A program made the translations under genes and the position numbers. The notes beneath the pieces were generated by a model that saw nothing but the letters and a program-made list of their open reading frames with translations, was not told where the DNA came from and ran no database searches. 64,000 nucleotides of DNA from Membranipora membranacea (Eukaryota > Bryozoa > Gymnolaemata > Cheilostomatida > Membraniporidae), in the NCBI GenBank assembly GCA_914767715.1, contig OU612067.1:34260162-34324161 (forward strand), written 5' to 3'. Of this stretch, positions 2,468 through 47,873 are shown one piece after another. The first letter of the stretch is position 1. Every line of letters begins with the position of its first letter.

Positions 2468-5165
2468 CTAATTTTTCTCATTTTTTCTTTTTCTCTTATT
2501 TTGAAGTGCATGTTTATCTTTATCGAGCATCTTTTTGACGATTTCCTGGTCAAGGTCAAAGGTTTTGGTTGTTTCCTTGTAGCCGCCATCTTGTATAAAT
2601 CCAGGAATGGGCGGAGTCTCTGTCGGACCCTTATAGGTTTGTAAGAGGATACCAGTATCCTTCTGTAAAATACCAAACAAAACTAGTTAGGAAAAATTCT
2701 GGCCCTGGTGAGCAAGTGGACGGAGTGATGAATGAGGAAGTACAACTCTAGAGTCGATTCTTCTATTTATGAGAAACCTGACCTGTTTTAGATAACCTCA
2801 AATCAATAACAAAGCTTGGAGGGAGTGGATGCGCTGCTGTATATCAAAAAGGTCACAGTTGCACCCTCTTCAAAACTTAACCCTGTTTAGAATATGCTAA
2901 CAAGAAGTTGGATGTGAATTCCTAATTCTTAATGGCCTGGCAAACATAAACCTAGGACATTTAAGGACTTTGTTTGAGGCTGCTCTTTTGTATCACATCT
3001 TATCCTACCATATCTTATTCTCCCGATTTTCAGCTTTAGAATCCAAATATTGAGGAAGTTATGGCCTCTCAAACTTCCAAGGTGACGGCAATTTATCGGC
3101 AGTAAGAATCAGCCGGCAATCCCTAGGGTACGTCACAACCATCATACTTATTACGATACACTAATAAATATGTTGATGTTGATGTGATGTTCAGATCTGT
3201 AACGTCTCGAACCCAGGTCCAAATGGCTTTGCAGGCAACGCCGCTAACGCTGATCTATATTGTCTACTGACTAACCTAGTTGGTCCAAGTGGGGTGATGG
3301 TAGCCTATAGTAATGGGGACCCGGGTTCGATTCCCACCCAGGTCTGAATTTTTATCATCATCTTATCTGTGTGATTATTAGTGTATTAACTAATAACTCA
3401 TAATAAGTATGACCATAGACAAAACACATGTCTATGGTTGTGACGTACCCCAGGGGAAACATCCGCTTATTCCCAATGCCGATTGAAGGCAATCACCCTG
3501 GAAGTTTGAGAGGCCATAACTTCCTCAATATTTGGATTCTAAAGCTGAAAATCGCTCACATGATAGAATAAAATATGGAGAATAAGATGTGATACAAAGG
3601 AGCAGCCTCAGACAAAGTCTTTAATTTATACAGAAAAATAAACTATCCGCAATTTCATTCGATTTTTGTGACATTGTGAGAAATAATCATCGGCTTATAC
3701 AGCTTCACTAAGGGAATGATAAGTCAGAACATAACCAATGCCTCCTAAGCTTATCCATCAAGCGGCGCAGCTACTGACAATCAACAAAGACCGTCCCATT
3801 GAGCCTACCTGACAGGCCTGCTCATACATGCGCGGACTCTCGAGCTTCAGCTCCTGCAGGGCGAACTCCTGAGATTTAATCATCTTATCAAACTTTTCAC
3901 GTATTTTGAGAGACTCGGAATCTTTATATCTGCCGTACTCTACTCTCAGTAAATACCTACTACGCTGCTCGTCTCGAGAATTTACTAAATCATCTAACTG
4001 TCGAGGTCTGAAATACAACACAAGGAAGAGATTCACCGTAACAATCTAATTGATCATAGTCTCGACCATTGCACCTCAGTAAACCTTACCATCATACTAT
4101 GTGATGGATGCTATTATCATAGTGTATATTTCATTTGAAATTTGATTCGCTATGTTGGTCACTTCAAAAAGGCCGTTGCAGTGATCTTGTAAATTGAAGC
4201 ACTTTTCACCACCAGATAACAGTATAATCTAGAGATTTTACAATGAGCTAGTGGATATCTGATGGACAGACCTTAGTTTCTTGTAACCTCAAGGCCTGGT
4301 CACCTCAAATTAGTGTAAAATATATCAAATGTGCACTCGAAGATAGTAAATAGCTTTGTCACGATCCTTGTTAGATCTAGTTAAATTTTGGATGAGATGA
4401 ATAGACCAACACTCCTGGGCTAAGGACAAATTCTAAAGAAAGTTTTTGTCATGATCATTTGCTCCTCCCATATTTCAACAATAGATATGACTAGGTCTGG
4501 GTCTGGGTCCGGACAGAACTGAAATGGTTTGAGTCAGTAGGATGAGTATAGTAATTGTCTGAATGTCAATGAAAACATAGTCATACTGGTCTCTGAGCAC
4601 AGCCTGCAATCATTAGGGGTTATCTTCTCATTTCTCATGGAGTGCATAACCACAAACAATACCAGCAACCCAAAAAAACCCCAAAAATAACAGTCTGTAA
4701 TTTATAACCGGTTGTCACTCACGGAGCATTCTTTGGCACGTCTCTGTGAAGATCAAACTCATCGATCGGTTTGAGTTTTCTGGCAAATCTCTTTTGCTGT
4801 CTGATCCTTTTCTCAATTTTCCTCACTGATCTGTCGATCGATGCCTTTATGATCATCGGATCCAGCTTCTTCTTTTTTTTCATTGGCGCACCGCTAAGAT
4901 AATAAATCCAGTAGTTGTGATCATTATCTCAAGTTAGTTGACAATATGGGTGGAACTGCGGATTTCATTTCTCAAAATAGATTGCTGAGCAGTCAGATGC
5001 AGTCTGTTCTCACATGAGCGGCTGGGGTTGATGACATGATGAGAAAATAGAAATAAAGTAAATAAAATGTTTGGACAATCTTACCATAACGGAGCTGAAA
5101 GCTGGAAACATCTCTGCCATGTTGTGTTATATAACGGTACGCATAGTCTGGCTATCGGAACTGAC
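2468..5165 (-). CDS. MRPL40: Mitochondrial large-subunit ribosomal protein L40 (mL40), 5' end incomplete
   Basis: Four minus-strand exons join in phase: 5165-5085, 4893-4723, 4007-3809 and 2662-2468, which ends in TAG. Together they give at least 214 codons; the human protein has 206. Recognisable family blocks, in order, are a lysine run followed by KKKKLDP, the basic helix IEKRIRQQKRFARKLKPIDEF, the segment LQELKLESPRMYEQA (human LEELQLESPKLHAEA) and TPPIPGF near the C-terminus. The product is a structural protein of the mitochondrial ribosome large subunit. The exon at 5165-5085 encodes arginine- and leucine-rich residues fitting a mitochondrial targeting sequence, but in that frame it has no ATG. 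An upstream coding exon ending in phase 2 must exist, and I could not place it. An in-exon ATG (MAEMFPAFSSVM) is out of phase with the next exon. A poly(A) signal lies at 2302-2297. Confidence 0.85.
2961..3624. repeat. tRNA-derived fold-back element inside an MRPL40 intron
   Basis: A long imperfect inverted repeat: the arm starting at 2961 (ttaaggactttg) matches the complement of the arm ending at 3624. Homology continues through the block reading cctcaatatttggattct on the opposite strand. The arms run about 200 bases, then inward to 3191-3220 and 3317-3347. The centre holds an RNA polymerase III type promoter on the plus strand. An A box (tggtccaagtgg) lies at 3281-3292 and a perfect B box (ggttcgattcc) at 3324-3334, 31 bases apart as in a tRNA. 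The flanking bases pair weakly like an acceptor stem. The opposite arm carries a second B-box-like GGTTCGAGAC on the minus strand. It looks like a SINE-derived palindromic element, not a functional tRNA gene. Confidence 0.8.
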
Positions 5166-6735: not shown

Positions 6736-9700
6736 ATGGATGCAGATCAGGATAGGAGTACAATACTGGCTGATTTCCAGGTGGGTTATCTGATTTTAAT
6801 TCTGAAAATATCTGCAACTACTACTAACTAACTATCTCAATCTCAATCTGCAGTTACAATAAAAGAATTGAATTATACATTGTTGTTATTATGATATATG
6901 TATATATGATAAGATATAGCATTGAAATAGTAATACTCACTATAATCATTGTTAACATCATAAATATAATCTGGCTATTGGTTATCCCAATGAATGTTCA
7001 ATGTGTTAATGTTCAATGAGGGAGTTCATTGGTTATCCCATGTTTGTATAAAGAATTTGAGAGAGTCCTACTCCTGGACTTGCTTCCTCTGATCAATGAA
7101 CTGTTCATTGCTCTGATGCTTCCCTGAAAGTGAATTCTGCCAGGCTATTGAACCACTCCAGATTTGAAAGGGAATAAATGACACCCTCAATAGTTTCTAT
7201 TGCTGTCATGCATGACCATGTATTGTGTATGTTTACTTGTAGGCTTGTACAAATATAGATGATATCGGACATGCTCTGGCTGTGCTGGAGGCTGTGAACT
7301 GGAATCTGACGGTAAGTTTGAGATACTCTGCAATCTATATTCATATATAGGAAGTTTGTCTGCTGTCTTGCACACAGTACAAAGTACCATCTCCTGACTG
7401 TTATTATTGGTTTGATGAGATGATTGTCAATGCTTACCTTTCCTTTGTTATTAAATATTTGATGATTTATTTGTTTTCAGGCTGCAGTGAACCAAGTGTT
7501 AGGTGGAGATGACAGCAACATTGGACCTGGTAATAACGAGGAGGTAAGTTAGCCTAGACGTACCAACTAAGTGTAAGTCACGTAGGCCTCAAGTAAGTGT
7601 AAGCTATATGCAGTTAGTGTAAGATTGACTTATCTCATATTTTGTTGGGACCATTTTACCGTGTCAGCAAGTAAACATTAAACGCAACTTTGTACTCCAG
7701 GATAGTTTTGTGATTTTAATGATTTTGCTGTACATCATTGTGTTGTTATTGCCCTTTGTTTGTAGGCCATGCAGGGTGCTGCAGCCTCAGTACCAGGCCC
7801 TAGTCTCGGTGTGGTTGGGCAGGGTATGCATGGGCCCCCTCCTCCTCCTGATGATGGAGCCTTACCTCCCATTCTGGCTCATGGTTTTGTGGGTGTACGT
7901 AACGACAGTCCGACAAGGCGAGAGATCACAGACGAGGATGGCATAGTCAGGCGTCTCATTATATTCCACGCCAATTATGATAATCGGCTACAAGAAATAG
8001 AAATGATGGACTCACTCACAGTTGGTAAATACAAATGTCATCCAGCACTTCAGAGCTTAGGGCCAAGTCATGAACGTAACCCTGATGTGAAACCATCGAT
8101 TATCAGTTTTTACTAAGATTTTCTAAGGTCATTGTGACTACGGATGATGGCATGCAGGGAATCAGGGGTTTTGGCTCGGTGATACCAGGGAGTAGAGCTG
8201 TCTCAGTCTCCCTGGTGATACATGAGGAGCCACCCATCATGTGTATGGTGCTATGACTCTGCCCACGTACTGTTAAAGGATTAGAATTCTGAGATGATAC
8301 AAATAAAAAAGATTTCAGGTCGTTTCGGTTACACGATGTCACATGATGACCTAAATTCTGTTTATTGACCAAATCACCTGTAAACATGAATTGATGCGCT
8401 GAAAGTGATAGATGTTATTTTAAGTTTACTCATTTTATAGATGATTTGAAGGATCTGATAGCTAACAAGTTTGACCTGGATAAGAGTTTATTTTCTGTCG
8501 TCTGGGCCGACGATCAGATAAACCCTGAAGATAATGTAAGTTAATATCTGCTGTCTCTCAACTACTTAACTAAACAAGACAATGGGTTGTTTTAGCTAAG
8601 AGCCCCAGCCTCCCCCCCCCCCCCTCTCCTCCAACTCTGCACCCCTCCATCAAAAGGTCAGGGTGAATATGAATTGTCAGAGTATTTGCTAATACCCTTA
8701 CGATCATGTGAATATTTTTGTTGTTCGATGCGGTGCAAAAGATGCAAAGATCTGTTACATGATCTCTGAACAATGAATGCAGCTCATGGAAATACTCCTA
8801 CTGCTAATTTTACTTACGACAAACCCAAACAAGCCATTAGTGGAAGTATGAAACATAGCAGCAGGCGCTATATGATAAAGTACTTACCACAAGGAAAACA
8901 TCCTCATCGATTTTTGCTAGCACCTGGCTATCACCTCTCAAACAAAGGATGTCTCTTGTTGGACATTGCTTTTCAGAAATCCAACAGAGCCCAGATAGTC
9001 AGTCAAGGAAAGTTGACTGACTGAGTCTCAGTCTCTATCAACTCATTATCTATCTTAGATTTATTAGTGGTGATTATTTTTTTAATATGTCATTGTTAAA
9101 GCCTGTATCGCCTATTGTCACACCACAGCAAAAATTTTCCCAGGGCTGTAACAATGCAATACCATAGCTATCGATATTCTTTCTTTCCTATTGTAACTTT
9201 GCAACTGTGTATACACACTCGGTGACAGTTTTTGCATGTTTTTTTCCTTATGGTCATGCAGCACTGCTTATACACTTTTATTTCTATTTTTAGTTATGCT
9301 TTATCTACGTACGCCTTGATCATTCACTCATCATGTTTAAAAATCACCATCAAAATCTACCCAAAGAATGTTTGATAACAAATGGATAAATTGACATTCT
9401 AATACACTCACCTGGAATGTTTGACCTATTTTATAGAATACAATACTAGAGTTACACTTACCCAGAGAGAATACGTTACATATAATACCGTTACCCACCC
9501 CGCAGCCAGGTACATCTAATACAGCAAACTCACAATCAGTAAACTCAGCTAACAGCGAGGAGATGGCCGTCAGATATAAACTAAATATAGAGATAACACT
9601 GCCTACTGGAGCCAAGTTTAGTAATGATTACATCGAGCCAGGCAGCAAAACTGTCGGAGAGGTAAGGTGATATCTTGACAAGCTTATCTTGGTGGGGTAA

Positions 9701-12700
9701 CTGTTGTATGACAGCAGTGCCCCAAGAACAAGAGAACCGAAATTTTTCCAGTGGACCTAACAAAGCTGTTGTGAATATATGAGCGATATCCTCGCATGGC
9801 ATTCCAAATTCACAATGTGATACCCTCAGCTTAGTAATGTATTTTACCTATTTAAAAATACTTGAAATTATCACCACCTGAACTGTTTCAGATTAACCGA
9901 CCCTTCTTGTTGCTTTCCTTACTTCCTGTATTCTTACTGCTATTTTTCTTGTTACCAGATGAAAGGCACAATACACAGACTATACGGGATAAATATAGAA
10001 GAACAGATATGGACTGGTTGGCCCCCTGAAGGCCAGGTTAGTGACTTCGATACATTAGCAGCCTGTAAGCTCACTACCCCTATACATTATCTGACTGTCG
10101 TAAAACGTAGACCTGATCCTAACAATCCAGCTGATAGGGCTAATGCTCTAGTCAATGTGGTAGGAGGGGCACGCCCCCGTACACAAGCAGCACCTTTACT
10201 GGGTACTGTGTCTAACCCAGTAACTATAAACAGTGATAGTGAACCAGAGTCAGACCCGGAGGAGGAGATGATGTATGAGAGTGAGGAGGATATTACTATT
10301 ATACCGTCAGCCAGGAGGCCGGCTAGTAACCATCTCAGTGAGTAGTTATATCATAGTAAGGTGTAGGTAGGGGGACGGGTAAATGTGATATTACTATTAT
10401 ACCGTCAGCCAGGAGGCCTGCTAGTAATCATCTCAGTGAGTAGTTATATCATAGTAAGGTGTAGGTAGGGGGCGGGTATATGTGATATTACTATCATACC
10501 GTCAGCGAGGAGGCCGGCTAGTAATCATCTCAGTGAGTAGTTATATCATAGTAAGGTGTAGGTAGGGGGACGGGTATATGTGATATTACTATTATACCGT
10601 CAGCTAGGAGGCCGGCTAGTAATCATCTCAGTGAGTAGTTATATCATAGTAAGGTGTAGGTAGGGGGACGGGTATATGTGATATTACTATTATACCGTCA
10701 GCTAGGAGGCCGGCTAGTAACCATCTCAGTGAGTAGTTATATCATAGTAAGGTGTAGGTAGGGGGACGGGTAAATGTGATATTACTATTATACCGTCAGC
10801 GAGGAGGCCGGCTAGTAATCATCTCAGTGAGTAGTTATATCATAGTAAGGTGTAGGTAGGGGGACGGGTAAATGTGATATTACTATTATACCGTCAGCGA
10901 GGAGGCCGGCTAGTAATCATCTCAGTGAGTAGTTATATCATAGTAAGGTGTAGGTAGGGGGACGTGTATATGTGATATTACTATCATACCGTCAGCGAGG
11001 AGGCCGGCTAGTAATCATCTCAGTGAGTAGTTATATCATAGTAAGGTGTAGGTAGGGGGACGGGTATATGTGATATTACTATCATACCGTCAGCCAGGAG
11101 GCCTGCTAGTAATCATCTCAGTGAGTAGTTATATCATAGTAAGGTGTAGGTAGGGGGACGTGTATATGTGATATTACTATCATACCGTCAGCCAGGAGGC
11201 CTGCTAGTAACCATCTCAGTGAGTAGTTATATCATAGTAAGGTGTAGGTAGGGGGACGTGTATATGTGATATTACTATCATACCGTCAGCTAGGAGGCCG
11301 GCTAGTAATCATCTCAGTGAGTAGTTATATCATAGTAAGGTGTAGGTAGGGGGACGTGTATATGTGATATTACTATTATACCGTCAGCCAGGAGGCCGGC
11401 TAGTAATCATCTCAGTGAGTAGTTATATCATAGTAAGGTGTAGGTAGGGGGACGGGTATATGTGATATTACTATTATACCGTCAGCCAGGAGGCCTGCTA
11501 GTAACCATCTCAGTGAGTAGTTATATCATAGTAAGGTGTAGGTAGGGGGACGGGTATATGTGATATTACTATCATACCGTCAGCTAGGAGGCCGGCTAGT
11601 AATCATCTCAGTGAGTAGTTATATCATAGTAAGGTGTAGGTAGGGGGACGGGTATATGTGATATTACTATCATACCGTCAGCCAGGAGGCCTGCTAGTAA
11701 TCATCTCAGTGAGTAGTTATATCATAGTAAGGTGTAGGTAGGGGGACGTGTATATGTGATATTACTATCATACCGTCAGCGAGGAGGCCGGCTAGTAATC
11801 ATCTCAGTGAGTAGTTATATCATAGTAAGGTGTAGGTAGGGGGACGGTTATATGTGATATTACTATTATACCGTCAGCCAGGAGGCCGGCTAGTAACCAT
11901 CTCAGTGAGTAGTTATATCATAGTAAGGTGTAGGTAGGGGGACGGTTATATGTGATATTACTATTATACCGTCAGCCAGGAGGCCTGCTAGTAATCATCT
12001 CAGTGAGTAGTTATATCATAGTAAGGTGTAGGTAGGGGGACGGGTATATGTGATATTACTATCATACCGTCAGCGAGGAGGCCGGCTAGTAATCATCTCA
12101 GTGAGTAGTTATATCATAGTAAGGTGTAGGTAGGGGGACGTGTATATGTGATATTACTATCATACCGTCAGCGAGGAGGCCGGCTAGTAATCATCTCAGT
12201 GAGTAGTTATATCATAGTAAGGTGTAGGTAGGGGGACGTGTATATGTGATATTACTATCATACCGTCAGCCAGGAGGCCTGCTAGTAACCATCTCAGTGA
12301 GTAGTTATATCATAGTAAGGTGTAGGTAGGGGGACGGTTATATGTGATATTACTATTATACCGTCAGCCAGGAGGCCGGCTAGTAACCATCTCAGTGAGT
12401 AGTTATATCATAGTAAGGTGTAGGTAGGGGGACGGTTATATGTGATATTACTATTATACCGTCAGCCAGGAGGCCGGCTAGTAACCATCTCAGTGAGTAG
12501 TTATATCATAGTAAGGTGTAGGTAGGGGGACGGTTATATGTGATATTACTATTATACCGTCAGCCAGGAGGCCTGCTAGTAATCATCTCAGTGAGTAGTT
12601 ATATCATAGTAAGGTGTAGGTAGGGGGACGGGTATATGTGGTATTACTATTATACCGTCAGCCAGGAGGCCGGCTAGTAATCATCTCAGTGAGTAGTTAT

Positions 12701-15700
12701 ATCATAGTAAGGTGTAGGTAGGGGGACGGGTAAATGTGGTATTACTATCATACCGTCAGCCAGGAGGCCGGCTAGTAATCATCTCAGTGAGTAGTTATAT
12801 CATAGTAAGGTGTAGGTAGGGGGACGGGTATATGTGATATTACTATCATACCGTCAGCCAGGAGGCCGGCTAGTAACCATCTCAGTGAGTAGTTATATCA
12901 TAGTAAGGTGTAGGTAGGGGGACGGTTATATGTGATATTACTATTATACCGTCAGCCAGGAGGCCTGCTAGTAACCATCTCAGTGAGTAGTTATATCATA
13001 GTAAGGTGTAGGTAGGGGGACGGGTATATGTGATATTACTATTATACCGTCAGCCAGGAGGCCTGCTAGTCACCATCTCAGTGAGTAGTTATATCATAGT
13101 AAGGTGTAGGTAGGGGGACGGGTATATGTGATATCACTATTATACCGTCAGCCAGGAGGCCGGCTAGTAATCATCTCAGTGAGTAGTTATATCATAGTAA
13201 GGTGTAGGTAGGGGGACGTGTATATGTGATATCACTATTATACCGTCAGCTAGGAGGCCGGCTAGTAACCATCTCAGTGAGTAGTTATATCATAGTAAGG
13301 TGTAGGTAGGGGGACGGTTATATGTGATATTACTATTATACCGTCAGCCAGGAGGCCGGCTAGTAACCATCTCAGTGAGTAGTTATATCATAGTAAGGTG
13401 TAGGTAGGGGGACGTGTATATGTGATATTACTATTATCCCGTCAGCCAGGAGGCCTGCTAGTAACCATCTCAGTGAGTAGTTATATCATAGTAAGGTGTA
13501 GGTAGGGGGACGTGTATATGTGATATTACTATCATACCGTCAGCTAGGAGGCCGGCTAGTAATCATCTCAGTGAGTAGTTATATCATAGTAAGGTGTAGG
13601 TAGGGGGACGTGTATATGTGATATTACTATTATACCGTCAGCCAGGAGGCCGGCTAGTAATCATCTCAGTGAGTAGTTATATCATAGTAAGGTGTAGGTA
13701 GGGGGACGGGTATATGTGATATTACTATTATACCGTCAGCCAGGAGGCCTGCTAGTAATCATCTCAGTGAGTAGTTATATCATAGTAAGGTGTAGGTAGG
13801 GGGACGGGTATATGTGATATTACTATCATACCGTCAGCTAGGAGGCCGGCTAGTAATCATCTCAGTGAGTAGTTATATCATAGTAAGGTGTAGGTAGGGG
13901 GACGGGTATATGTGATATTACTATCATACCGTCAGCCAGGAGGCCTGCTAGTAATCATCTCAGTGAGTAGTTATATCATAGTAAGGTGTAGGTAGAGGGA
14001 CGTGTATATGTGATATTACTATCATACCGTCAGCGAGGAGGCCGGCTAGTAATCATCTCAGTGAGTAGTTATATCATAGTAAGGTGTAGGTAGGGGGACG
14101 GTTATATGTGATATTACTATTATACCGTCAGCCAGGAGGCCGGCTAGTAACCATCTCAGTGAGTAGTTATATCATAGTAAGGTGTAGGTAGGGGGACGGT
14201 TATATGTGATATTACTATTATACCGTCAGCCAGGAGGCCTGCTAGTAATCATCTCAGTGAGTAGTTATATCATAGTAAGGTGTAGGTAGGGGGACGGGTA
14301 TATGTGATATTACTATCATACCGTCAGCGAGGAGGCCGGCTAGTAATCATCTCAGTGAGTAGTTATATCATAGTAAGGTGTAGGTAGGGGGACGTGTATA
14401 TGTGATATTACTATCATACCGTCAGCGAGGAGGCCGGCTAGTAATCATCTCAGTGAGTAGTTATATCATAGTAAGGTGTAGGTAGGGGGACGTGTATATG
14501 TGATATTACTATCATACCGTCAGCCAGGAGGCCTGCTAGTAACCATCTCAGTGAGTAGTTATATCATAGTAAGGTGTAGGTAGGGGGACGGTTATATGTG
14601 ATATTACTATTATACCGTCAGCCAGGAGGCCGGCTAGTAACCATCTCAGTGAGTAGTTATATCATAGTAAGGTGTAGGTAGGGGGACGGTTATATGTGAT
14701 ATTACTATTATACCGTCAGCCAGGAGGCCGGCTAGTAACCATCTCAGTGAGTAGTTATATCATAGTAAGGTGTAGGTAGGGGGACGGGTATATGTGGTAT
14801 TACTATTATACCGTCAGCCAGGAGGCCGGCTAGTAATCATCTCAGTGAGTAGTTATATCATAGTAAGGTGTAGGTAGGGGGACGGGTAAATGTGGTATTA
14901 CTATCATACCGTCAGCCAGGAGGCCGGCTAGTAACCATCTCAGTGAGTAGTTATATCATAGTAAGGTGTAGGTAGGGGGACGGTTATATGTGATATTACT
15001 ATTATACCGTCAGCCAGGAGGCCTGCTAGTAACCATCTCAGTGAGTAGTTATATCATAGTAAGGTGTAGGTAGGGGGACGGGTATATGTGATATTACTAT
15101 TATACCGTCAGCCAGGAGGCCTGCTAGTCACCATCTCAGTGAGTAGTTATATCATAGTAAGGTGTAGGTAGGGGGACGGGTATATGTGATATTACTATCA
15201 TACCGTCAGCCAGGAGGCCGGCTAGTAACCATCTCAGTGAGTAGTTATATCATAGTAAGGTGTAGGTAGGGGGACGGGTATATGTGATATCACTATTATA
15301 CCGTCAGCTAGGAGGCCGGCTAGTAACCATCTCAGTGAGTAGTTATATCATAGTAAGGTGTAGGTAGGGGGACGGGTATATGTGATATTACTATTATACC
15401 GTCAGCCAGGAGGCCTGCTAGTCACCATCTCAGTGAGTAGTTATATCATAGTAAGGTGTAGGTAGGGGGACGGGTATATGTGGTATTACTATTATACCGT
15501 CAGCCAGGAGGCCGGCTAGTAACCATCTCAGTGAGTAGTTATATCATAGTAAGGTGTAGGTAGGGGGACGGGTATATGTGATATTACTATTATACTGTCA
15601 GCCAGGAGGCCTGCTAGTAACCATCTCAGTGAGTAGTTATATCATAGTAAGGTGTAGGTAGGGGGACGGGTATATGTGATATTACTATTATACCGTCAGC

Positions 15701-18700
15701 CAGGAGGCCGGCTAGTAATCATCTCAGTGAGTAGTTATATCATAGTAAGGTGTAGGTGGGGGGACGGGTATATGTGATATTACTATTATACCGTCAGCCA
15801 GGAGGCCAACTAGTAATCATCTCAGTGAGTAGTTATATCATAGTAAGGTGTAGGTAGGGGGACGGGTATATGTGATATTACTATTATACCGTCAGCCAGG
15901 AGGCCGGCTAGTAACCATCTCAGTGAGTAGTTATATCATAGTAAGGTGTAGGTAGGGGGACGGGTATATGTGATATTACTATTATACCGTCAGCCAGGAG
16001 GCCGGCTAGTAACCATCTCAGTGAGTAGTTATATCATAGTAAGGTGTAGGTAGGGGGACGGGTATATGTGATATTACTATTATACCGTCAGCCAGGAGGC
16101 CTGCTAGTAATCATCTCAGTGAGTAGTTATATCATAGTAAGGTGTAGGTAGGGGGACGGGTATATGTGATATTACTATTATACCGTCAGCCAGGAGGCCT
16201 GCTAGTAATCATCTCAGTGAGTAGTTATATCATAGTAAGGTGTAGGTAGGGGGACGGGTATATGTGATATTACTATTATACCGTCAGCCAGGAGGCCGGC
16301 TAGTAATCATCTCAGTGAGTAGTTATATCATAGTAAGGTGTAGGTAGGGGGACGGGTATATGTGATATTACTATTATACCGTCAGCTAGGAGGGCGGCTC
16401 GTAATCATCTCAGTGAGTTATCATACCTCTACTAGTGAAGAAGGGTATATGTTGTCATATGGGAAGGTTTAATGTATCACCTTATTCATATATTTGAATC
16501 CACTGATGGCTTGTTTGGAATCACAATGCTAATCTGTTTCAGGTGCGATCTCCTTTATTTGCTGAATATCAAAGCAACTACATACAATAAAGTTTGGGTT
16601 GCCCTCTCTCTGACGTAATAACTCAGAGAGGGCACAACTCCAAACAATAAGTATCAACAATAATTTCGATCTGCTGGGTAAACAAATAGTGCAAACATAA
16701 ATCATTTTATCTCGCTGCCGTTTAGTTCCAGCCAATATTGATGACCCGATTGAAGCTGTTACACATTTTAACACTGAGTTTGTGAGACGATACGGCGTTA
16801 CGACACATCCAGCCTTCTACCCCGGCTCACTCAGAGACGCAGTCGATAACGCTCTACAGGTCAACGCATTCGACGTAAGATCTTTTTTCTTTGCAATAAT
16901 AATTATGGATAAAGTGGTTAACTGAGTACTTGCAATCATTCTCTCTCTCTCTTATGGATTCATATTTTCACTTCTCCTTGATGAAGATTTTGCATTTGTC
17001 CTGTCATCCTCAAGTACTGTTTGGTATTGTAGTATTATATGTGGCGTTTGAAAATTATTTTGTGTTCAAGGGATGCAACCTCGGTTTTGCCATCGTTGTC
17101 ATGTTCATTATCAGACACAAGGTCCAAAAATAAGCAAACCAACAGTTTTAAGTACAATATGTATACTGCTGTGTGAATGTGTATGTATTTATAACACAGA
17201 GGCGGTTACTTGCCATATATTTTCTGTTCAATTTTATACACACATATATATATATATATTATTTATATAGAGACGGTTACTAGCTGTATATCTACATCAT
17301 GATGAGAGTATAGCCTCCAACGTATTCTGTTCTAATGTCTTATGCTCAGAAACTATAGTCAACTATTTATCTACTAACTTCCTAGTCTGGGGCTGGGATC
17401 TTACTCTTGAAGTCAACAAACAAAGGTACGTCATCCCCCCTCCCTCTCCCCATGAGATCAACATTTATAAACTAAAATATAAAAATAAAGATTATAAAAC
17501 AGTTTTTATCTTGTTGCTATTTCAGAATAGTTACTGTTGAGAACTTTTCAGATATCTCTGATCCTACATCATAACTTCTCTGTCAATCATCATGAAGGTG
17601 ATAATGATGAGCAATTTTGCAATGGCATTCTCGATTACTCGATTACTCATAGTACAAATAGCTGATGATAAACATGAAGAGAATTCAGCTGTCAGGATAT
17701 GAGAACAAAGGTTGCCAGACACCCGCCGTCATTATTGCACGCTTTGATAAAAATCCAAATGTTGTCAAATTTTCAGATGATTCCTTCATTCTCCAAGCTG
17801 TTGGCAGGCTTCCAGTCAATTCAGTGATTCGTTATGTACATCCTGTTAATTTACAGGTTTATTTTCTTTTTCTCGATAATTAACAGTGATGTGTAAATTT
17901 ACACTTTGCAGATTTTACACGATGTTTGAGCAGGTAATGGGTAGAGGTGTTGATTTCGTAAAGAGACTGAGAACAGATCAGTTACCTGTGATAGTCATAG
18001 TGTCTAAGGTAAGATACAGTATAACCCATAATGATAACTATGAATGTTACCATGTAGATTATAATGTGACCTTGGGACTACTGCGACCCTCCTATTATTC
18101 AATGATTGCCACTTTTTATGTTCAGTGTACTTTGCAATGAGTCAGAGAAGTAGAGGGATACCTTTGTCTCTGGTTGCTATGTAAGAACATGGTAGACTTT
18201 GTGCTGCCAATTTGAAAGACAGTTATTAGAGACCCTCCAAGTTTGTATGTTTGAGGTCTCCATGGTTTTACATCCACACAGACTGAGTGTACTGTGTGAT
18301 AGTATGTAAGGAATGTGTGGTGATTCCGCTGACAGGTATAGCCTGCAGCAATATGACTCAGAAAGAAAGTCTATCACCTGCTATCCAAATTATATAATCA
18401 TCTTCTGGATTTTTAATGAATGCCATTTCCACTCTTTCTGTCTCTTGTGCCACCACAATAAAAAATATTTATATTGAAAGTAATGTGGGTCCGAAACTCG
18501 ATGTTAACGTTTGGGAAATGTTTATTCCATTTACAAGCTAACAGTTCATGTCACCTTTATTGCGTTGATATATTACTGCCAATTTTTTTGGGATGAGCTC
18601 CATCGATCACGATCATATTTTGTGTTGATTGATCCATTTATAGCTATCACCAGCACCAGGTCTTACATGCACATAAAACAAGCTATCATGTACATTGCTT

Positions 18701-20596
18701 ATATAAAAAATTATTTGGCATGCCAAAAATGAAACAGAGAAAAAAACATATTCAACAACAAATAAAGGAATGCCTGCCCTAAGATGTTTCGACGCTAAGA
18801 CACTGACCTAAGACGATGTATCACTTGATGTATCAATCTGATTCTTTCAGGTGAGAGGAGCTATAGAGATATTAGGTACATCCTCAGCTACAGTAAGCGC
18901 TGACGAGCTGATGACTACATTACTACAATCTGAGGATGTTTTCCAGGGTCAGCGTCAGCAGGATATCAGGGAGGAGGTTAGAGATAAATATGGGGAAAAT
19001 CAATGTACAAAAATGCTATCTGGTAACATTGAATCAAACTCTACTGTAGTAAGCAAATGTAACCAATTACGGCATTCATTCTAATAAATTTCATAGGGTT
19101 AATTTTAAGAAATTTTAATACTAATATTTTAATTCAAACGCTAATAATAAGTTCTCCTTAACGGGATAATTCTTTTAATAAAGTCATTAACAATTTTTCT
19201 TCTGATATGAATACCTTCTTTACTATGCCATTACAGACTGAGCGACGGGAGAGAGAGGAGATGAAGGCCCTACAGGATCAGGCCTACGAGGAATCACTAG
19301 CTCAAGATCGTGTTAAGGTAAGTGCTACGATAATTCGTGTTTGAGCTGAGCTAGTGTGTGGTGTTTGGAGATGAATAGAAAACACAGGTTAGTTTGTGAC
19401 TAAGAGTCCTGAAACATCTGTGAATACTTAAAATAAGTGAAAAACGCCTCCAAGTCGCCCAAAACTCGATAGTACCAAGCTTCACTTAGGTTAGCGTTTG
19501 TTTGTCAAACTGGCATTCTTTTCATTGTAATCTAAAATGTTACCTGAGATGCATTGCATAGTTATTTGGAGAGGGTGTTATAGTCCTGATACCTGTAAAT
19601 AGTCCTGATACCTGTAAATAGTCCTGATACCTGTAAAATTGCGACGTTGATTAATTTTTGAAAATACAATATCTCCCCTTCACAGCAACAACAAAAAGAA
19701 GATGAAGAGAAACAGAAACTAGCAGAACTGGAGGCTCAGCAGCTGGAGGAACAAACACAGGAGGTAAGATTGTGATCAACAGCCAATGATCTGGTCAGGA
19801 TTCTCTATAGACCTTAGGACAGCCACTAAACATTAGAACACTACTGCGGACATGTTATGATAAAATGTTTAAATACAGTGGTTAATGATGAGCTCGACTT
19901 GTAGGCACAATGGACATAAGGGAACTGATGGACTTGATTAGTGATGTACATAAATCTAGACCCATGCTCCAGACTGTCACTTGTATTATGTCGTTATTGA
20001 TAATCTGTTTATAACAGGCGATCCGAGCCTCTGTAGCAGACACGATACCACCAGAACCTGCGGCCGATACGACAGATACAGTAGCCAGACTCAGATTCAG
20101 GTGTCCTAATGGTGAGATGATAAATAGGCGCTTCCTCGGTACTACACATCTAAATATACTACTCAACTATCTCGTAACTCAGGGATATAATATACAGGAG
20201 TATAAACTACTAACTACCTTCCCTCGTAGAGATGTGAGTACAATGTGCACATATGAGATTAGCCAGATATGGCTCGGACGCCAGTCCAAGGTTTTTTAGT
20301 GGCTCCTCCATGTACCGTCAAGTTTCTTCCACTGTGCACTCGCACATGGTGCCAAGCAGCTTACCCCCTCTACTCCCAAATTCCATATTATCTTAAGATG
20401 ATGTTATGTTAAAAACCATGGGAGATATAATTCAAATTCAAATTTTATACCACTTATAAACAAAAAATCTCTTGGCGTTCTGGTTGTGTGTCATGTTTGT
20501 TTTCTGTATTTCTAGTTGTCAGCTGAAGATCCAAAGAAGACATTAGAGGAATTAAAGCTCTGTCCACAAGAGACTCTTATATTAGAAGCTAAGTGA
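6736..20596 (+). CDS. FAF1: FAS-associated factor 1, UBX-domain cofactor of p97/VCP
   Basis: Fifteen exons join in phase to 2043 bases (680 codons plus TGA; human FAF1 has 650): 6736-6780, 7243-7311, 7481-7543, 7766-8024, 8441-8535, 9506-9661, 9959-10337, 16732-16874, 17271-17425, 17912-18008, 18851-18976, 19237-19317, 19686-19763, 20018-20233 and 20516-20596. In order the protein shows a UBA domain (about 1-45, STILADFQACTNIDD), two ubiquitin-like domains (about 120-177 and 200-265), an acidic linker (SDSEPESDPEEEMM), a thioredoxin-like UAS domain (LLAVYLHHDES), a charged coiled coil (about 525-582) and a C-terminal UBX domain (about 604-680). The UBX domain keeps the p97-binding TFPRRD loop. 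FAF1 delivers ubiquitylated clients to p97 for degradation. The exon 11 donor, GTTAGA, is weak. Intron 7 is filled by a 6.1-kb minisatellite that copies the end of exon 7. A poly(A) signal lies at 20955. Confidence 0.95.
8607..8626. repeat. Homopolymer C tract in FAF1 intron 5
   Basis: A run of cytosines within a pyrimidine-rich stretch of intron 5. It is worth marking because assembly length at such tracts is often unreliable. Confidence 0.7.
10289..16419 (+). repeat. 98-bp minisatellite, 63 copies, built from the FAF1 exon 7 end and its splice donor
   Basis: The unit starts at the gatattact of exon 7 at 10289 and recurs every 98 bases (one 97-base step at 10387-10484), up to a last partial copy at 16364. 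Each unit is 49 exon bases (codons for DITIIPSARRPASNHL plus one base), the donor CTCA|GTGAGTAG and 49 intronic bases including the G-rich gtaggtagggggacgg. Copy 1 is the real exon end. All copies I read, including the degenerate last one, keep ctcagtgagt. Frequent variants are att/atc (two codons), gcc/gct/gcg, ccg/cct and aac/aat in the exon half, and gggtat, gtgtat, ggttat or gggtaa in the intron half. Read-through in the exon 7 frame hits TAG at once. Confidence 0.97.
16588..16652. repeat. Imperfect hairpin in FAF1 intron 7
   Basis: The arms gtttgggttgccctctctc and its near complement (gagagggcacaactccaaac) face each other across a short loop around cgtaataac, just before exon 8. The size is that of a microRNA precursor or a tiny fold-back element. 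There is no direct evidence that it is processed. Confidence 0.5.
19581..19637. repeat. Three perfect copies of a 19-bp unit in FAF1 intron 12
   Basis: tagtcctgatacctgtaaa occurs three times head-to-tail at 19581, 19600 and 19619. Confidence 0.9.
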
Positions 20597-20960: not shown

Positions 20961-22427
20961 ATACCTGTATACCTGAACTTTTTAACACAAAAGCAGACCC
21001 CTATGAATCAGCTTATTTGAGGGATGATTTTATGAAATCAATCTCCTGCAATAAAATTACCTCAAGGACAAACTTCTTCTCTCTCAATGATGATCAAGGT
21101 CAGTATTGTTTAGTATGCTGGTCATTGTGTCAGCATGTCGATATTTATGATCAGTCTAGGTCAGTATTGTTTAGTATGCAGGTCATTGTGTCAGCATGTC
21201 GATATTTATGATCAGTCTAGGTTAGTTTTGAAGACGTCAGATGCTCATATATACAGTCACAAAGTAAGGATATGTCCTAACTCTGTGATACAGTGCAGTG
21301 AGTTGTTGAGTTGTTTGTGTTTGAGGGAGAAAGATGGTCATTCACAGGTCATCATTGACAGACTTGGCTAGTACATGACTTTGGAATTTGATTCAGTGAT
21401 GTTATAATAATATGATCCAGCTGATCTTATTTCTCTCTCATATCCTGGTTCTAGATAACATGTATCATATGACTTTGAATGTGCTAACTGTAATTTAGAA
21501 CCACTTTTTTCGTTGAAAAGTTTTGTATACGCTGCCAAAACTATTAGCAATATTTATGCTCACAGCCGAACAAGTTTCCTTTGTTTATTTAGATTTGTTT
21601 TGAGTTTGCCAACAAGTAAATCATTACATCACAATGACTAAAGGTCAGAGGCCGTCACTGGATCAGTCCACTCATACTTGATCCCTAGATCGGTCACAAT
21701 GCTCTAATCTAAGCAGACATGATCTCAAGATGTGCCTGGAATGTTAGCTTTTTGAAGGTTGGGCTCAACATAGTATGCCATTTATTTGTTTTGCTGTGTC
21801 CAGACTTTATATAATACACTAGAGCTGTGTCTATGGTTATAATTGTTAATTTCGAGAGACACTGAAATTGTATGTTTGTGATTCATTTATCCTCTGAAAT
21901 TTGTGGGAAAATAAGATAGATGTATGATAATTATTATGATAGCGACATTTGATCGATCGCATAAAAAATACGATAAAAATCAGTCTGCTACTCTGAAAAC
22001 TGTGTATTATTTACAACATGGAAAATTCATAAACATATAATTAGTTGAGATTTAAAGGTGTCTATACATAATATGATTATATGAAAGACAGGTTTGTGTA
22101 GACCAAATATGCTGCTGTATACTGGGCATGGACTATATAGGTATGTGGATTACCTTGATAGAATATAAATATAATAGAACAATTTCAACAAATATGGAAG
22201 TTCTCGATTTTCACGATCAGCTGCTGACCTGTAGGGTGGTTATCTGATTGCAATTGTATGAGCTCCATGGGGCTGCTGAAGATCATGGAAATATATCCAC
22301 CATTATTAGTGTCATGGTGAATGCTCATTATTCTTTTTCGCTGCTTCAAAGTACATTTTATTACAAAGTAATTTTTCCTCTATTCACTCAGCAGATTTGT
22401 AGATTTGTGGTTGATATATGAGAGTTA
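20961..22427. other. Convergent spacer between FAF1 and the serine protease gene
   Basis: It holds two 61-bp tandem copies (21098-21219), a degenerate palindrome at about 21258-21290 related to the perfect one at 55120-55151, and a minus-strand AATAAA at 22362-22357 that fits the end of the protease transcript. No coding sequence recognised. Confidence 0.55.
21098..21219. repeat. Two tandem copies of a 61-bp unit
   Basis: Units start at 21098 and 21159 (ggtcagtattgtttagtatg) and differ at about one position, so the duplication is recent. Confidence 0.9.
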
Positions 22428-39500: not shown

Positions 39501-41284
39501 AGGTTTGGGTGACCAAGAATGTCAACAACAAATTACCCAAAATAATGTGCAGACAATTCTCCTGTCAGACCGGTCATGTTAAATCATCTACACCACTTAG
39601 AACGAGCAGGTGTGAAGATTTTTGACATCTGTACCGAAGTGGTACACCATGATAAAGTTCACTCACATATATGAATCTCTGATTATTTGTTCAGAGCGTT
39701 TATATCTAAGACTGTTGTCGCCAGCTTCCCTCCAATAGCATACTCTATCAAGGTCTATAAGCAAGCATATTTATGATTGTTTCACGTACATTCCTCTTGA
39801 TACAAAGGATATGCCATGGCATGATAGGGACGCACATGTCACATGTCATGTCATCTATGTCAAGATAGAAGTGAAGAACACCTATATCCGTGCAATCCGT
39901 ACAAACTAGAAAATAATATGACACAATAGTATCTTTGAACCAAGTAAAGATAATAGGTAGGGTGTAATGACCATACCATAGGATGCCTGTGCAATTCACC
40001 ATGATTCAGAGTTCCTCTCTTCATCAGAAATAGCAGGGGATGTCAGAGGGATGGTTTATCTAGATGTAGACAAATCTAGTCTGATCTAATCTTGTGATAA
40101 GAACTTTAACCCAATACTAGGTTTGGTCCCCTTATTCTACCAGCGACCATCACTCACTCTCGCATTCTCAATCTAATTCGATTCTGAGTAAACCTTAATA
40201 GGAAAGGGGATTAACATTTTAGCTCAAACTTTATCTGTTTTATTTTTAGAGGCTCAGTCTACCAAAGCTGCTGTTTATTGGTACAGCCAGCTTGCTCTAC
40301 CTCATGATCAGTTATCAAACCCTCCGACAGGATCTCACCTCCAAACCAGCTGATATCACAGGCGATATCACAGCCTACACTCAGACTACTGACCTAGCTG
40401 TCAGTCAGCAGAAACAATATCATGCAGCGCAGGGTACCAGATATCTAACCATAGCTCCACTGGATGGCTCTTTTGGTAGATTAGGTAATTTCTGTTTCCG
40501 TTACGCCTCTGCTCTCGGCATCGCTAAAGCCAACAACATGACCCTGGTATTACCAGACACCAAACTAGTCAGGAAGATGAGGAATGTATTTCGAATCACA
40601 GCTCCGCTAGTGTCGGAGCTCAATGTGAACACATCAGACTTTGTAAAGGTCTGGGAGAAGCACTGGGGAGTGTTTGATACGAGACATTTCTTCTTATCGA
40701 AGGTCTCTAATGTGACATTATACAAAGTCTACTCACAGAGCTGGAAATACTTCTACCCAATACAGAAATTGATCAAAAGTGAATTGAAACCTCAAATAAC
40801 AGTCAAGAATGCCAGCGTCGAGTTCAGAAACAGGTTGAAGGCTTTTGAAGGCTCACAGAAGATTGTTATTGGTGTTCATGTGAGGCGAGGTGACTTTTTA
40901 AAACCCGAGCTCCAAGATTGGGGCTATGCTGTAGCACCAGCAGAATATTTCAGCAGAGCCATTAAATACTTTATTGATAAGTTTACGATCTCAAGGCTGA
41001 TTTTTATTGTGGCAACAGATGACAGGCACTGGTGTGAGAAGTCACTGAACTTTACAGGTGCTCCGTATCACTACACTGCAGGTCACTCTGCGGTAGAAGA
41101 TTTTAATATCCTTTCTCAGTGTGATCATCACATTATCTCAGTCGGCTCGTTCGGATGGTGGACTGCGTGGCTCGGTACAGGTACGGTGGTATACTACAAA
41201 GATTTCCCCACCCCAGGATCTACCCATAGTAAGAACCACAACCCACCAGACTACTACCCCTCTAAGTGGGTAGGTATGTCATAG
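36539..41284 (+). CDS. Alpha-1,2-fucosyltransferase-like type II membrane enzyme (GT11), copy 1
   Basis: Exons 36539-36545 (ATG GAA G), 37905-37966 and 40250-41284 join in phase to 1104 bases, 367 codons plus TAG. The N-terminus is a basic cytoplasmic tail (MEALQRFIRTITNRHC), then a signal anchor (about 28-45, LLFIGTASLLYLMISY), then a polar stem. The GT11 catalytic domain shows LDGSFGRLGNFCFRYASALG, the GDP-fucose-binding motif HVRRGDF (near residue 233), ATDDRHWC and the C-terminal CDHHIISVGSFGWWTAWL. It should act in the Golgi, adding alpha-1,2-linked fucose to galactose-ended glycans; the exact acceptor cannot be read. Several N-glycosylation sites (NMT, NVT, NFT) are present. The one-exon catalytic domain is usual for the family. 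The seven-base first exon is the least certain part, but phase and the GTACGT donor support it. Confidence 0.9.
36618..36659. repeat. Two perfect copies of a 21-bp unit in intron 1 of fucosyltransferase copy 1
   Basis: aaagacccgcagagacctta repeats at 36618 and 36639. Confidence 0.9.
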
Positions 41285-44943: not shown

Positions 44944-47873
44944 GTGATGGTGCAGGTTTTCTCACATGCTGCTGGAAGATCACTACACTAAGTAATGACT
45001 TTTATCCGCTGACGATATTAAGAAGCAGCTCAACAATGTTTTATGCTCAGGTAAGAAAAACATTCATTTTCTCACTTGTGGTTGTTATTGATAGATCTCC
45101 ACTTGGCATAAGGAGCTAACTCCTTGATCGTAGTTAGAAAGGGTCTTGTTTATGGATAGTCTATGTCCTTTATGGATATTCTATGTCCCTTCATGGTTGG
45201 TGTTTCCACTAGTCCTAGTAATTGGGGATCTGGACTAGATATTGACATCACTGACTCACCACTCTCACCACAGTTATTTGTGGTTGAGTTTCAGCGTCTC
45301 AAGTCATAATCTAAGAGATCAATCAGTTTGATCGTAGACATATATTATAGTATGGCTTCATCACAGATAACTGATCAATGTTATGGAGTTAGCCCAATTA
45401 ATCTAAATCATAGATGAACAAAATGCTGAATTTGATTCAATGATTAATTTCGAAGATTTCGAAGAATTTTTAAAAGATTCTAGGGAATAATCTCTGAGTG
45501 GTGCACCTGGACAAAAATCATGACAGATATTGTGACAATAGTCTCATCTCTAAATTCAAACTAGTAAATATTTATTACAAGTCTAACAAATTGTTGAGCT
45601 AATTTATGAGTAACTCCCTCTGGGCGATGAGTACCTAGCTAAGGGTGGTGAACATTTATACAGACAATTTAAGTAGATAAATCTGAATAACCTCTATGTT
45701 AGTGAAGGAAAAATATTGGAACTTAATTAGAAAAAAACTTGCTTATTTGTCCAATATCGGGAGCACCCATTTAGGATCTTAAGCCAACTTGATATTCACA
45801 AAAAATGATATCACTTATAGACAATGGTTAAAAAAATTTAAATTAAATAGTCCTATTTTACCACTTAAAAGAGAGTATGGTATATTATTATTATTAATAG
45901 GGTATATATACACAGTTTTACACAATTGTCCCCCCTGTTAAAAAGGTTATGATAGCTCAACAAACAGGATCCTCGGCATGCCTCAGTACGCCAGAGAGAA
46001 CATTTGAATTTCACCTGTAGAATAGTTTTAATCACCAGTTGGCCATCATAACACCAGACGATAGATCACAGATGGAATATCACTCTCCAATAATAACATG
46101 GCTCTCACAATCCACTTGTCTCATTCTCTCCTTGCAACATAGCCTCCCCCCCCCCTCGACCCGGCCCCCTCACCACATCTCCCCTCAATGTTATCTTCAC
46201 AATCCACTCCTCCCAACTCATCCTGATTATACTGATACTAATGACATTTAGCTATTCTATTATGTGAAACTGTTGGGGAAATTGCTAGGAAGTGTCTGTG
46301 ATAATGTGATAAGACATCAAAGCCACTTAGGATGATTTAGTAGACATGCATTATAATTTATCTTGTGTTGTTATAATTTAGTGTGTTGTGTCTGGCTGTG
46401 ATAACAATAGAAAGTGTAGGAGAATATTCCACTGATCCATCCAGACACTGGTCAGTAGGAAGGAACTGGGAGTTAATTTTCTAATTCCAAGAGGGAAACT
46501 TCTAATCTTCAGCGCCCGCTGCTGAAATTGCTGTAATATATTTTAATTAGATTGACCAGTTTAGGTGATGAACTGTTTAAATTAATTAGCAAAAAAGTTC
46601 ATATAGAGTTCCCAGTCAACAACTTGAAAAATTAATAAAATAAAAAAAATGAAATGAAATGGATGGGGTCTAATGATGAGTCCTTCAGATCTCGTATATT
46701 TTGGCAAAATACCACACTGGAGAGCAGGACGACAATAACAGGAGTAAACGTTTGCTCTTATTTTTCTATTTTCAGATCACACGGTTCCAGAGGTATTTCA
46801 TGCCGGCAGCCTTGTTTATAGTTGTGGTAACAACTTTTATGTACTCAGATAAGATGACCATGACAATCTATCAACCGACAGATACTGATTCTACCTCACC
46901 TATACTCCTGCCAGAACCAACACAACCTGCTGCCAACACCGATAAAAACACCGGACAAAAGACCGGACACAATTCAGTGGCCACAAACTCTGATATTAAA
47001 CGTGTCGGCCCACCTTATATCACTATATACCCTTTGGACGGCAGCGCGGGGCGCCTCGGTAACTTCTTTTTTAGATACGCTTCAGCTTTAGGAATGGCTA
47101 AAGCTAATAACATGACTTTAATACTACCCGATACACCACTGGTGAGAAAGATGAGAGAATCGTTCAGTCTGTCTGCTCCTCTAGAGTCGGAGCTGGCCAC
47201 TCCAGTAGACTGGACAATACATCAAAATATCAGTGAGTCAAACTGGGGTGTGTTCGATAGTAAGCTGTTCTTACTACCACATGTAAACACTCGGCTTAAC
47301 TGGGTCTATAGCCAGAGCTGGAAGTACTTCTACCCGATAGACGATCAGGTCAGACAGGAGTTTGTACAGAAGCCGAGCGAGGTGACTACGAATAGTAAAC
47401 AGTTCATGGAGAAGATGAGAGATGAGTTTAGTAATAAGACCAGCGGTATAGTGATAGGTATGCACGTACGGCGGGGAGACTTTCTAATAGAACATCATCA
47501 GAAGTGGGGGTACGCCGTAGCCACCAAAGAATATTTTTCCAATGCCACCAAATATTTTGTTGACAAGTTTGGTAAAGACATATTATTCATAGTAGCCTCT
47601 GATGATAAGTACTGGTGTCAGCAGACTATAGACTTTAACGGGGCGTACGCTCGATTTTCCACTGATAAGTCAGCACTGGAGGATATGACTATACTGGGGC
47701 TATGTGATCACCATGTTATCAGTGTCGGGTCGTTCGGTTGGTGGACAGCCTGGCTTAGTGAAGGTCACGGTGAGGTGATATACTATAAGAACTTCCCAAC
47801 CCCTGGAAGTAACCACGCCAAAAACCACAACCCTGTCGATTACTTTTTGCCAAACTGGAGAGCCATGGAGTAA
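44944..47873 (+). CDS. Alpha-1,2-fucosyltransferase-like type II membrane enzyme (GT11), copy 2
   Basis: The main exon is 46776-47873, after a strong acceptor (tttttctattttcag). It joins in phase 0 to an exon at 44944-45050 flanked by tttag and GTAAGA. The simplest start is the ATG at 45036 (MFYAQ|ITRFQRYFMP), giving 370 codons, close to copy 1. The whole upstream exon is open and begins in the same phase as exon 2 of copy 1, so a longer tail is possible. The frame continues upstream of 46776 into the intron; that stretch (from 46701) is probably not coding. The signal anchor is FMPAALFIVVVTTFMY, followed by a Thr/Pro-rich stem. Catalytic motifs are LDGSAGRLGNFFFRYASALG, HVRRGDF (47463), ASDDKYWC and CDHHVISVGSFGWWTAWL. 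A Golgi role is as for copy 1. A poly(A) signal lies at 48038. Confidence 0.88.

Follow-up and report, generated by a model that had tools for sequence, protein, structure and literature searches.

A 63-copy array of an exon-intron boundary in a FAF1 gene of Membranipora membranacea, with candidate in-frame microexons

Whether copies of an exon-intron boundary amplified inside an intron are passive filler or are put to use in splicing is the question raised by a tandem array in the window (i.e., the whole 64-kb stretch of Membranipora membranacea DNA analysed here; all features given below lie on the + strand). The host gene was reconstructed by eye, joining 15 coding exons by frame (6736..20596) into a coding sequence for 703 aa without any array exon. 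The reconstructed protein matched Pfam FAF1 (E = 5.7e-51), UBX and UBA_4, as well as human FAF1 chains in PDB across residues 3-703 (E = 7.1e-114), which bears out the gene identity proposed in an earlier sequence-only reading of this DNA. Its exon assignment likewise holds, as the frame runs on from coding exon 7 (9959..10337) into coding exon 8 (16732..16874). The exon 7/exon 8 junction lies 12 residues ahead of the Pfam FAF1 stretch (391-536), in what we take, from domain roles, to be the linker following the ubiquitin-like part of FAF1.

The array (10289..16418) starts within coding exon 7 and occupies most of the 6,394-nt intron. Tandem Repeats Finder reported a period of 98, 62.6 copies and 97% matches, and the motif CTCAGTGAGT occurs 63 times in the array at spacings of 98 bp (61 times) and 97 bp (once), giving 63 copies of a 98-bp unit, one of them 97 bp long. 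Each unit spans the exon-intron boundary, with 49 nt from the end of exon 7 (the final 49 nt of that exon being the exon part of copy 1) and 49 nt of intron, and CTCA/GTGAGT, the slash marking the splice site, is present in 63/63 copies. The unit composition, copy number and donor invariance had all been claimed from the letters alone, and the gene model, unit alignment and motif counts agree with them. Two unit stretches of 27 and 26 nt, allowing <=3 mismatches, matched 63 and 62 times in the window, always inside the array (mean of 100 shuffles, 0). Rfam at gathering thresholds found nothing in the 64-kb window, and the predicted RNA folding of two units is on a par with that of shuffles (z = 0.08). 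Among ORFs of at least 110 aa on both strands, none reads through the array; the sole one touching it (9866-10345) stops at the TAG immediately after the copy 1 donor.

Large tandem arrays are generally error-prone in assemblies, and the copy number here could be inflated or the array misassembled. The composition of the array argues otherwise: 36 of the 63 units are distinct, their order is not simple, and variant combinations are mixed among the first 62 copies, whose mean pairwise difference is 3.3/98 positions. Moreover, a lag-23 comparison showed that units 11-23 (11268..12541) recur 23 units later as units 34-46 (13522..14795), with 10/13 pairs identical and 3/13 differing at one of the 15 variable sites. 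Across the array, 10/39 unit pairs are identical at lag 23 (0.256), against a highest lag value of 0.217 in 1000 shuffles of the unit order (lags 1-39). A duplicated single read path would give identical blocks, so the inexact block repeat speaks against an artefact, which we consider highly improbable; the 63-copy array is confirmed as present in this assembly as described. Given the 63 copies, the repeated multi-unit block, the mixed variants of copies 1-62 and the divergence of copy 63, the array probably grew by unequal exchange.

Arrays of exon boundaries are already known as mirages, a precedent on which the earlier reading was silent. The sections of the amphioxus reports considered here (PMC3087553, PMC3902484) describe mirages as minisatellite-like tandem duplications of exon-intron boundaries in Adh3 and the globins BflGb6 and BflGb9, also naming TnC and PGBD5, with unit lengths of 10-160 bp, and propose them as a source of new introns. 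The FAF1 array resembles them in a unit of minisatellite length that crosses an exon-intron boundary, in splice signals carried by many copies, and in edge copies left outside homogenisation. It differs in its 63 copies, compared with 6 and 3 in the two BflGb6 haplotypes described there, in belonging, probably, to a different phylum, and in the coding-type variation of its copies, all 62 of which after the first are phase-symmetric candidate microexons. Duplication across an exon-intron boundary, in which splicing makes use of a cryptic site within the exon, is also described for a potato RdRp gene (PMC4974935, in part), although that case is a single duplication with transcript support, whereas the 63 FAF1 copies are known from genomic sequence alone. 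Internal tandem repeats of human segmental-duplication genes, from the part of that account used here (PMC2812944), are likewise minisatellite expansions at exon-intron boundaries that can create new introns, but they average about four units of about 30 bp. What sets the FAF1 case apart is its 63 copies together with coding-like variation.

The sequence-only reading held that only copy 1 keeps the frame. This overlooked the AG acceptors within the copies: a candidate acceptor, gtcag/CC, lies 27 nt upstream of the donor in every one of the 62 later copies, and chains of copy donors and in-array acceptors remain in frame. Its related claim, that a later donor brings in an in-frame TAG, survives in part, since a TAG does stand straight after each donor and is included if the intervening copies are retained unspliced, but not if the in-array acceptors are used. 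In a scan for AG, donor and frame, 62/62 candidate microexons had AG before, GTGAGT after, a length of 27 nt and an open frame, from copy 2 (10409..10435, preceded by gtcag; acceptor score 5.35) to copy 63 (16386..16412). Their sequence follows the pattern CCAGGAGG...CTCA, their phase is that of exon 8, which begins CC, and 57/62 encode the identical peptide TRRPASNHL. The open frame is not special in itself: with exon 7 open, 14 of the 22 acceptor-donor pairs that the unit permits in frame are open as well; among these, with the 22/50 pair included, only those ending at GT 50 have a donor scoring >1.1. Schistosome micro-exon genes are a familiar case of successive very short exons that can be included without a shift of frame, and their exons differ from each other; FAF1 exons of this kind would be near-identical tandem copies.

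Protein searches placed the gene among bryozoan relatives. The closest FAF1 proteins found are bryozoan, the best of 84 matches being Watersipora subatra at 49% (scoring covered the 7994 candidates with the most words in common), and none of the 84 was close enough to be the FAF1 of M. membranacea itself. A repeat-bearing long FAF1, sought with a 1,261-aa query and a widened length range, returned 29 matches of which the best reached <=46%. The array-type peptide repeat is absent from five aligned relatives (one partial), the remaining matches lying outside this alignment.

How usable the unit splice sites are was scored with a weight-matrix model built from 22 introns (22 donors and 22 acceptors). 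The copy 1 donor GTGAGT (10338..10343), which is the exon 7 donor in the gene model, scores 4.92, with 2/22 donors of the set lower, and the consensus-unit acceptor scores 5.35, above 5/22 training acceptors, the exon 8 acceptor (4.17) among them. Equal or higher scores are reached by 6.5% of AGs outside the array (both strands) for the acceptor and by 6.0% of GTs for the donor. An earlier 13-intron model, now replaced, had given 2.75 for the unit acceptor (15.2% of AGs as high) and 2.21 for the donor (14.7% of GTs as high). The unit splice sites are thus weak, both scores falling at the low end of the range of the 22 acceptors and 22 donors. In the would-be pyrimidine tract (unit positions 1-17), 3/5 changes are T/C swaps (6, 12, 17), the others being A>G at 2 and A>C at 15. 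A second donor-like site, ATAGTAAGG, claimed for every unit, is indeed present in 62/63 copies and lost in copy 63. A third, TAG/GTAGGG, scores 6.65, above both GTGAGT and ATAGTAAGG, and its use as a donor would include a TAG. Each unit also contains a candidate zero-length recursive site, gtgtag/GTAGGG, whose acceptor half scores 3.14, above 2/22, without a good pyrimidine tract. Splicing between neighbouring candidate microexons would remove introns of 71 nt, which would be unusual: across three genes measured here, none of 21 introns is under 169 nt. Skipping every second copy would give introns of 169 nt. The portion of a bryozoan genome paper considered here (PMC13326412) gives no intron lengths.

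The variation among copies, whose third-position bias the earlier reading did not mention, bears on whether the exon-like parts are or were translated. Among 62 units, the exon-like part carries 12 distinct changes, of which 8 are synonymous, compared with a fraction of about 0.26 expected (P 0.002-0.005), and mean pairwise difference per site is 0.127 at third positions, 0.0097 at positions 1+2 and 0.0214 in the intron after GTGAGT, third-position diversity being 13 times that of positions 1+2. When the private changes of copy 63 are added, the excess is smaller: 8/14 are synonymous (P 0.009-0.020), or 5/9 in the microexon alone (P 0.044-0.074). These P values overstate independence, because the alleles are few and the copies share ancestry. 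Still, the third-position variation supports translation of the copies, present or past. That intron positions are less variable than third positions is not predicted by translation alone.

The same data can be read with no copy beyond the first in use. Here, the copy 1 donor and exon 8 acceptor are joined, the other 62 copies are intron, the array is nearly neutral, and the third-position signal is left over from variants filtered while the lineage sat in coding copy 1. Joining copy 1 to exon 8 indeed keeps the frame and encodes a complete FAF1, and the amphioxus globin and Adh3 mirages are described, in the sections considered, as not interfering with regular splicing (PMC3087553, PMC3902484). 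Alleles in at least 8 units are synonymous in 5/5 cases in the exon-like part (P about 0.001), while the 7 rarer alleles show no excess (3/7; P 0.23-0.30), as expected if recent changes are neutral. However, filtering in copy 1 only should leave intron sites past the donor varying at least as much as synonymous sites, and they vary less; with intron past the donor included, alleles in at least 8 units are 5/7 synonymous versus 0.23 expected (P 0.009). The repeated block also suggests growth inside the array, where the copy 1 filter would not act. Furthermore, the intron-proximal of two comparable donors tends to be favoured, according to the part of PMC6002489 used here, and at this locus that would be a late copy, bringing in the TAG. 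On balance, we judge this passive reading about as likely as the microexon reading.

The array end adds a further observation. Copy 63 encodes TRRAARNHL and differs from the consensus at 3/55 positions through the donor, yet after the donor only 26/43 unit positions match (Fisher P = 4e-5, for a split chosen after seeing the data). The 319 nt that separate the exon part of copy 63 from exon 8 (16413..16731, the last donor included) open with sequence related to, but diverged from, the intron part of the unit; the score of this likeness was equalled by 12/5000 shuffles and 20/11550 genomic windows, and by 1/1560 in a best-length control. Divergence from the donor onward is as expected if selection keeps the exon part of copy 63. 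The sharp break might also mark where a gene-conversion tract ends. Homogenised interior copies beside an excluded edge copy are in keeping with a mirage.

The earlier reading proposed a U1 decoy or dosage device, in which U1 snRNP would occupy dozens of donors, so that exon 7 splicing is delayed or diverted, TAG-containing transcripts go to nonsense-mediated decay and array length is tied to FAF1 output. U1 has a related role in protection from premature polyadenylation. Unit positions 43-80, donor included, show no variant in 61 full-length copies (longest variant-free gap, P 0.007), which speaks for such a device. For oestrogen receptor alpha, the part of PMC6002489 considered documents trapping of U1 by a pseudo-5' splice site, and a substrate bearing two strong 3' splice sites was poorly spliced, which the authors linked, in the portion used here, to double occupancy (PMC5389562); many donors might interfere likewise. 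On the other hand, U1 binding at alternative donors is regulated at complex A (the same part of PMC6002489, citing Hodson 2012), from which we gather that surplus sites do not necessarily become lasting decoys. The third-position signal is also left unexplained, and we consider a U1 decoy unlikely.

The array is an exon-intron-boundary minisatellite (i.e., a mirage), and for its copies we favour the microexon reading, tentatively and at somewhat less than an even chance: at present or in the recent past, a proportion of transcripts at least would include copies as phase-symmetric microexons of 27 nt. The unit holds what a tiny exon needs, namely a moderately pyrimidine-rich stretch, an AG, a donor and, between these two, 27 nt of in-frame coding sequence, and each included copy would add TRRPASNHL at the exon 7/8 junction. 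Because all copies share one phase, including or skipping any number of them leaves FAF1 in frame, a symmetry that would explain how an apparently intact gene tolerates an array of this size. We hold more doubtfully that the unit, being exon plus intron, supplies up to 62 near-identical microexons, each includable or skippable without frameshift, that would yield a (TRRPASNHL)n linker ranging from 0 to about 62 repeats, its length set by array size and splicing, with selection acting on the coding letters of the copies.

Either way, the locus is a naturally occurring test of donor choice, with 63 identical GTGAGT donors in one transcript. Inclusion of the copies as microexons would show how a minisatellite can give rise to exons and introns in bulk and how phase symmetry renders such an array harmless; if the copies are not included, the locus shows the spliceosome's fidelity in ignoring dozens of identical donors.

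A FAF1 model assembled by eye from exon frames spans 6736–20596, with 15 coding exons and a product of 703 aa that matches the Pfam families FAF1 (E 5.7e-51), UBX and UBA_4; a human FAF1 chain in PDB matches its residues 3–703. The closest proteins found come from Watersipora subatra (49%), whose lineage was checked to be Bryozoa, and from Bugula neritina, likewise a bryozoan (46%, partial), which makes a bryozoan origin of the window probable. Between the end of exon 7 (10337) and the start of exon 8 (16732) lies an intron 7 of 6,394 nt, versus 169–901 nt for the 13 other FAF1 introns. At the exon 7–8 junction (residues 375–380), the product lacks a short (L or M)-(I or M)-P motif that stands just ahead of the UAS-type region in the five aligned relatives.

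Tandem Repeats Finder reports one array at 10289–16418 (period 98, 62.6 copies, 97% matches). The sequence-only reading had described its unit as the end of exon 7, the donor and 49 nt of intron, repeated 63 times, and both points are borne out: unit positions 1–49 are the exon 7 end in the exon 7 reading frame, positions 50–98 are intron beginning GTGAGT, and CTCAGTGAGT occurs 63 times at a step of 98 bp, with one step of 97 bp. Copy 1 is the coding copy, and 36 of the 63 units are distinct. The last, copy 63, retains its exon part and donor (3 differences over 55 positions); its intron part has diverged and is still recognisably akin to the unit (26 of 43 unit positions match, an alignment equalled in 12 of 5000 shuffles and 20 of 11550 genomic windows). 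The block of units 11–23 is repeated at units 34–46, with 10 of 13 pairs identical and the other three each differing at a single variable site; when all unit pairs at a lag of 23 are compared, 10 of 39 prove identical (0.256), against a maximum of 0.217 in 1000 order shuffles. Moreover, 13 of the 15 pairs of common variant sites show all four combinations, so that there must have been recombination or conversion between copies, or else recurrent mutation at the same positions. The block repeat and the mixed combinations fit the pattern of a minisatellite growing by unequal exchange, and we consider it highly improbable that the array is an assembly error.

Shorter tandem repeats lie in FAF1 intron 12 (19580–19637, 19 bp × 3.1) and past the stop codon (21097–21230, 61 bp × 2.2), both clear of the model's splice sites. 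Elsewhere in the window, a second minisatellite at 56423–56839 (23-bp unit, 18.2 copies, 96% matches) is open in all three forward frames and covered by ORFs of 125, 165 and 190 aa, and two long inverted-repeat-like arms at 2990–3640, in an intron of a minus-strand gene as judged by eye, are possibly a transposon remnant. Two related ORFs at 40250–41284 and 46680–47873 (344 and 397 aa) resemble alpha-1,2-fucosyltransferase-type enzymes, and a separate set of three mutually related ORFs, on both strands (52198–52590, 57331–58155 and 58599–59369), we take to be methyltransferase-like, resembling thiopurine methyltransferases.

Each unit also carries a candidate acceptor, an AG at positions 21–22 preceded by a moderately pyrimidine-rich stretch, ttactattataccgtcag. 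From this AG to the donor are 27 nt, entered and left in phase 1, and all 62 copies after copy 1 keep the AG, the 27 nt, GTGAGT and an open frame, although an open frame is not special (14 of 22 in-frame acceptor–donor pairs in the consensus unit are open). The candidate microexons would encode TRRPASNHL (57 copies), TRRPASHHL (three), TRRPTSNHL (one) and TRRAARNHL (one); neighbours would be separated by introns of 71 nt (61 of these) or 70 nt (one), and the last copy by 319 nt from exon 8. Because the pieces share the same phase at both ends, any subset of copies can join without a frameshift, so the earlier claim that the frame survives only with copy 1 does not hold generally. With a simple weight matrix built from 22 introns in three of the window's genes (FAF1 and two minus-strand genes, the junctions of the latter picked by eye), the unit acceptor (5.35) exceeds five of 22 acceptors, that of exon 8 (4.17) included, and the unit donor scores 4.92, with two of 22 donors lower; outside the array, 6.5% of AGs and 6.0% of GTs score as high. 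The units additionally contain ATA/GTAAGG (3.32) and TAG/GTAGGG, the top donor score of the unit (6.65). The latter, as gtgtag/GTAGGG at unit positions 77–80 (10365–10368 in copy 1), has its AG abutting GT and resembles a recursive splice site of zero length. That the array acts as a decoy or in dosage appears improbable.

Variation was counted over 62 units, excluding copy 63 and counting unit 2 (97 bp) to position 80 only. The exon-like part (positions 1–48) holds 12 distinct changes, of which 8 are synonymous in the exon 7 frame and 4 are not (94 versus 10 unit-cells), where a synonymous share of 0.24–0.28 is expected (P = 0.002–0.005 for the exon part, 0.0003–0.001 for the whole unit); all P values for this variation assume independent changes, which the copies of one array are not. 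All five exon-part changes found in at least 8 units are synonymous (P about 0.001), and the seven rarer ones show no synonymous enrichment (3/7, P = 0.23–0.30). Copy 63 brings two private nonsynonymous changes, making the tally 8/14 (P = 0.009–0.020); for the microexon alone, copy 63 included, it is 5/9 (P = 0.044–0.074). Overall, variation across the exon-like part looks coding. Per site, units differ pairwise on average by 0.127 at third positions, against 0.0097 at positions 1 and 2 and 0.0214 in the intron past GTGAGT. Positions 43–80 (10331–10368 in copy 1), which take in 25 nt of intron past the donor, are variant-free in the 61 full-length copies (gap P = 0.007), a pattern for which translation and use of the donor both fail to account.

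Mostly third-position variation is the trace expected of translation. Either copies are spliced in as microexons, now or until recently, or selection screened the variants during their stay in coding copy 1 before they spread through the array. We hold the microexon reading to be a real possibility, if short of probable, and passive spread to be about equally so. Passive spread predicts intron variation at least as high, which is not seen (5/7 common alleles synonymous versus 0.23 expected, P = 0.009), although translation does not account for the low intron variation either. Also against passive spread is the tendency, noted in PMC6002489, for the intron-proximal of two comparable donors to be favoured, which here would read TAG. 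Against microexons stand the 71-nt introns they would require, versus a minimum of 169 among 21 introns measured, and the weakness of the splice sites.

A further argument against microexons comes from amphioxus, where tandem repeats across exon–intron boundaries were named mirages and, in PMC3087553, are reported to leave splicing undisturbed, as RT-PCR of BflGb6 suggests. The BflGb6 repeats there have units of 150–160 bp, two haplotypes carrying 6 and 3 of them, and evolve in concert except for the edge copies; its authors proposed that a repeat could turn into a real exon. Other sources add PGBD5 and TnC as mirage cases (PMC3902484), boundary minisatellites making new introns in human segmental-duplication genes (PMC2812944), and an intron gained through one boundary duplication in a potato gene (PMC4974935). 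By structure, we file the FAF1 array as a mirage. In the accessible portions of the open-licence literature, we saw no splice-donor array as large as this, nor any whose copies vary in a coding-type manner. Relative to known mirages, what is new in the FAF1 array is its size and its coding signature.
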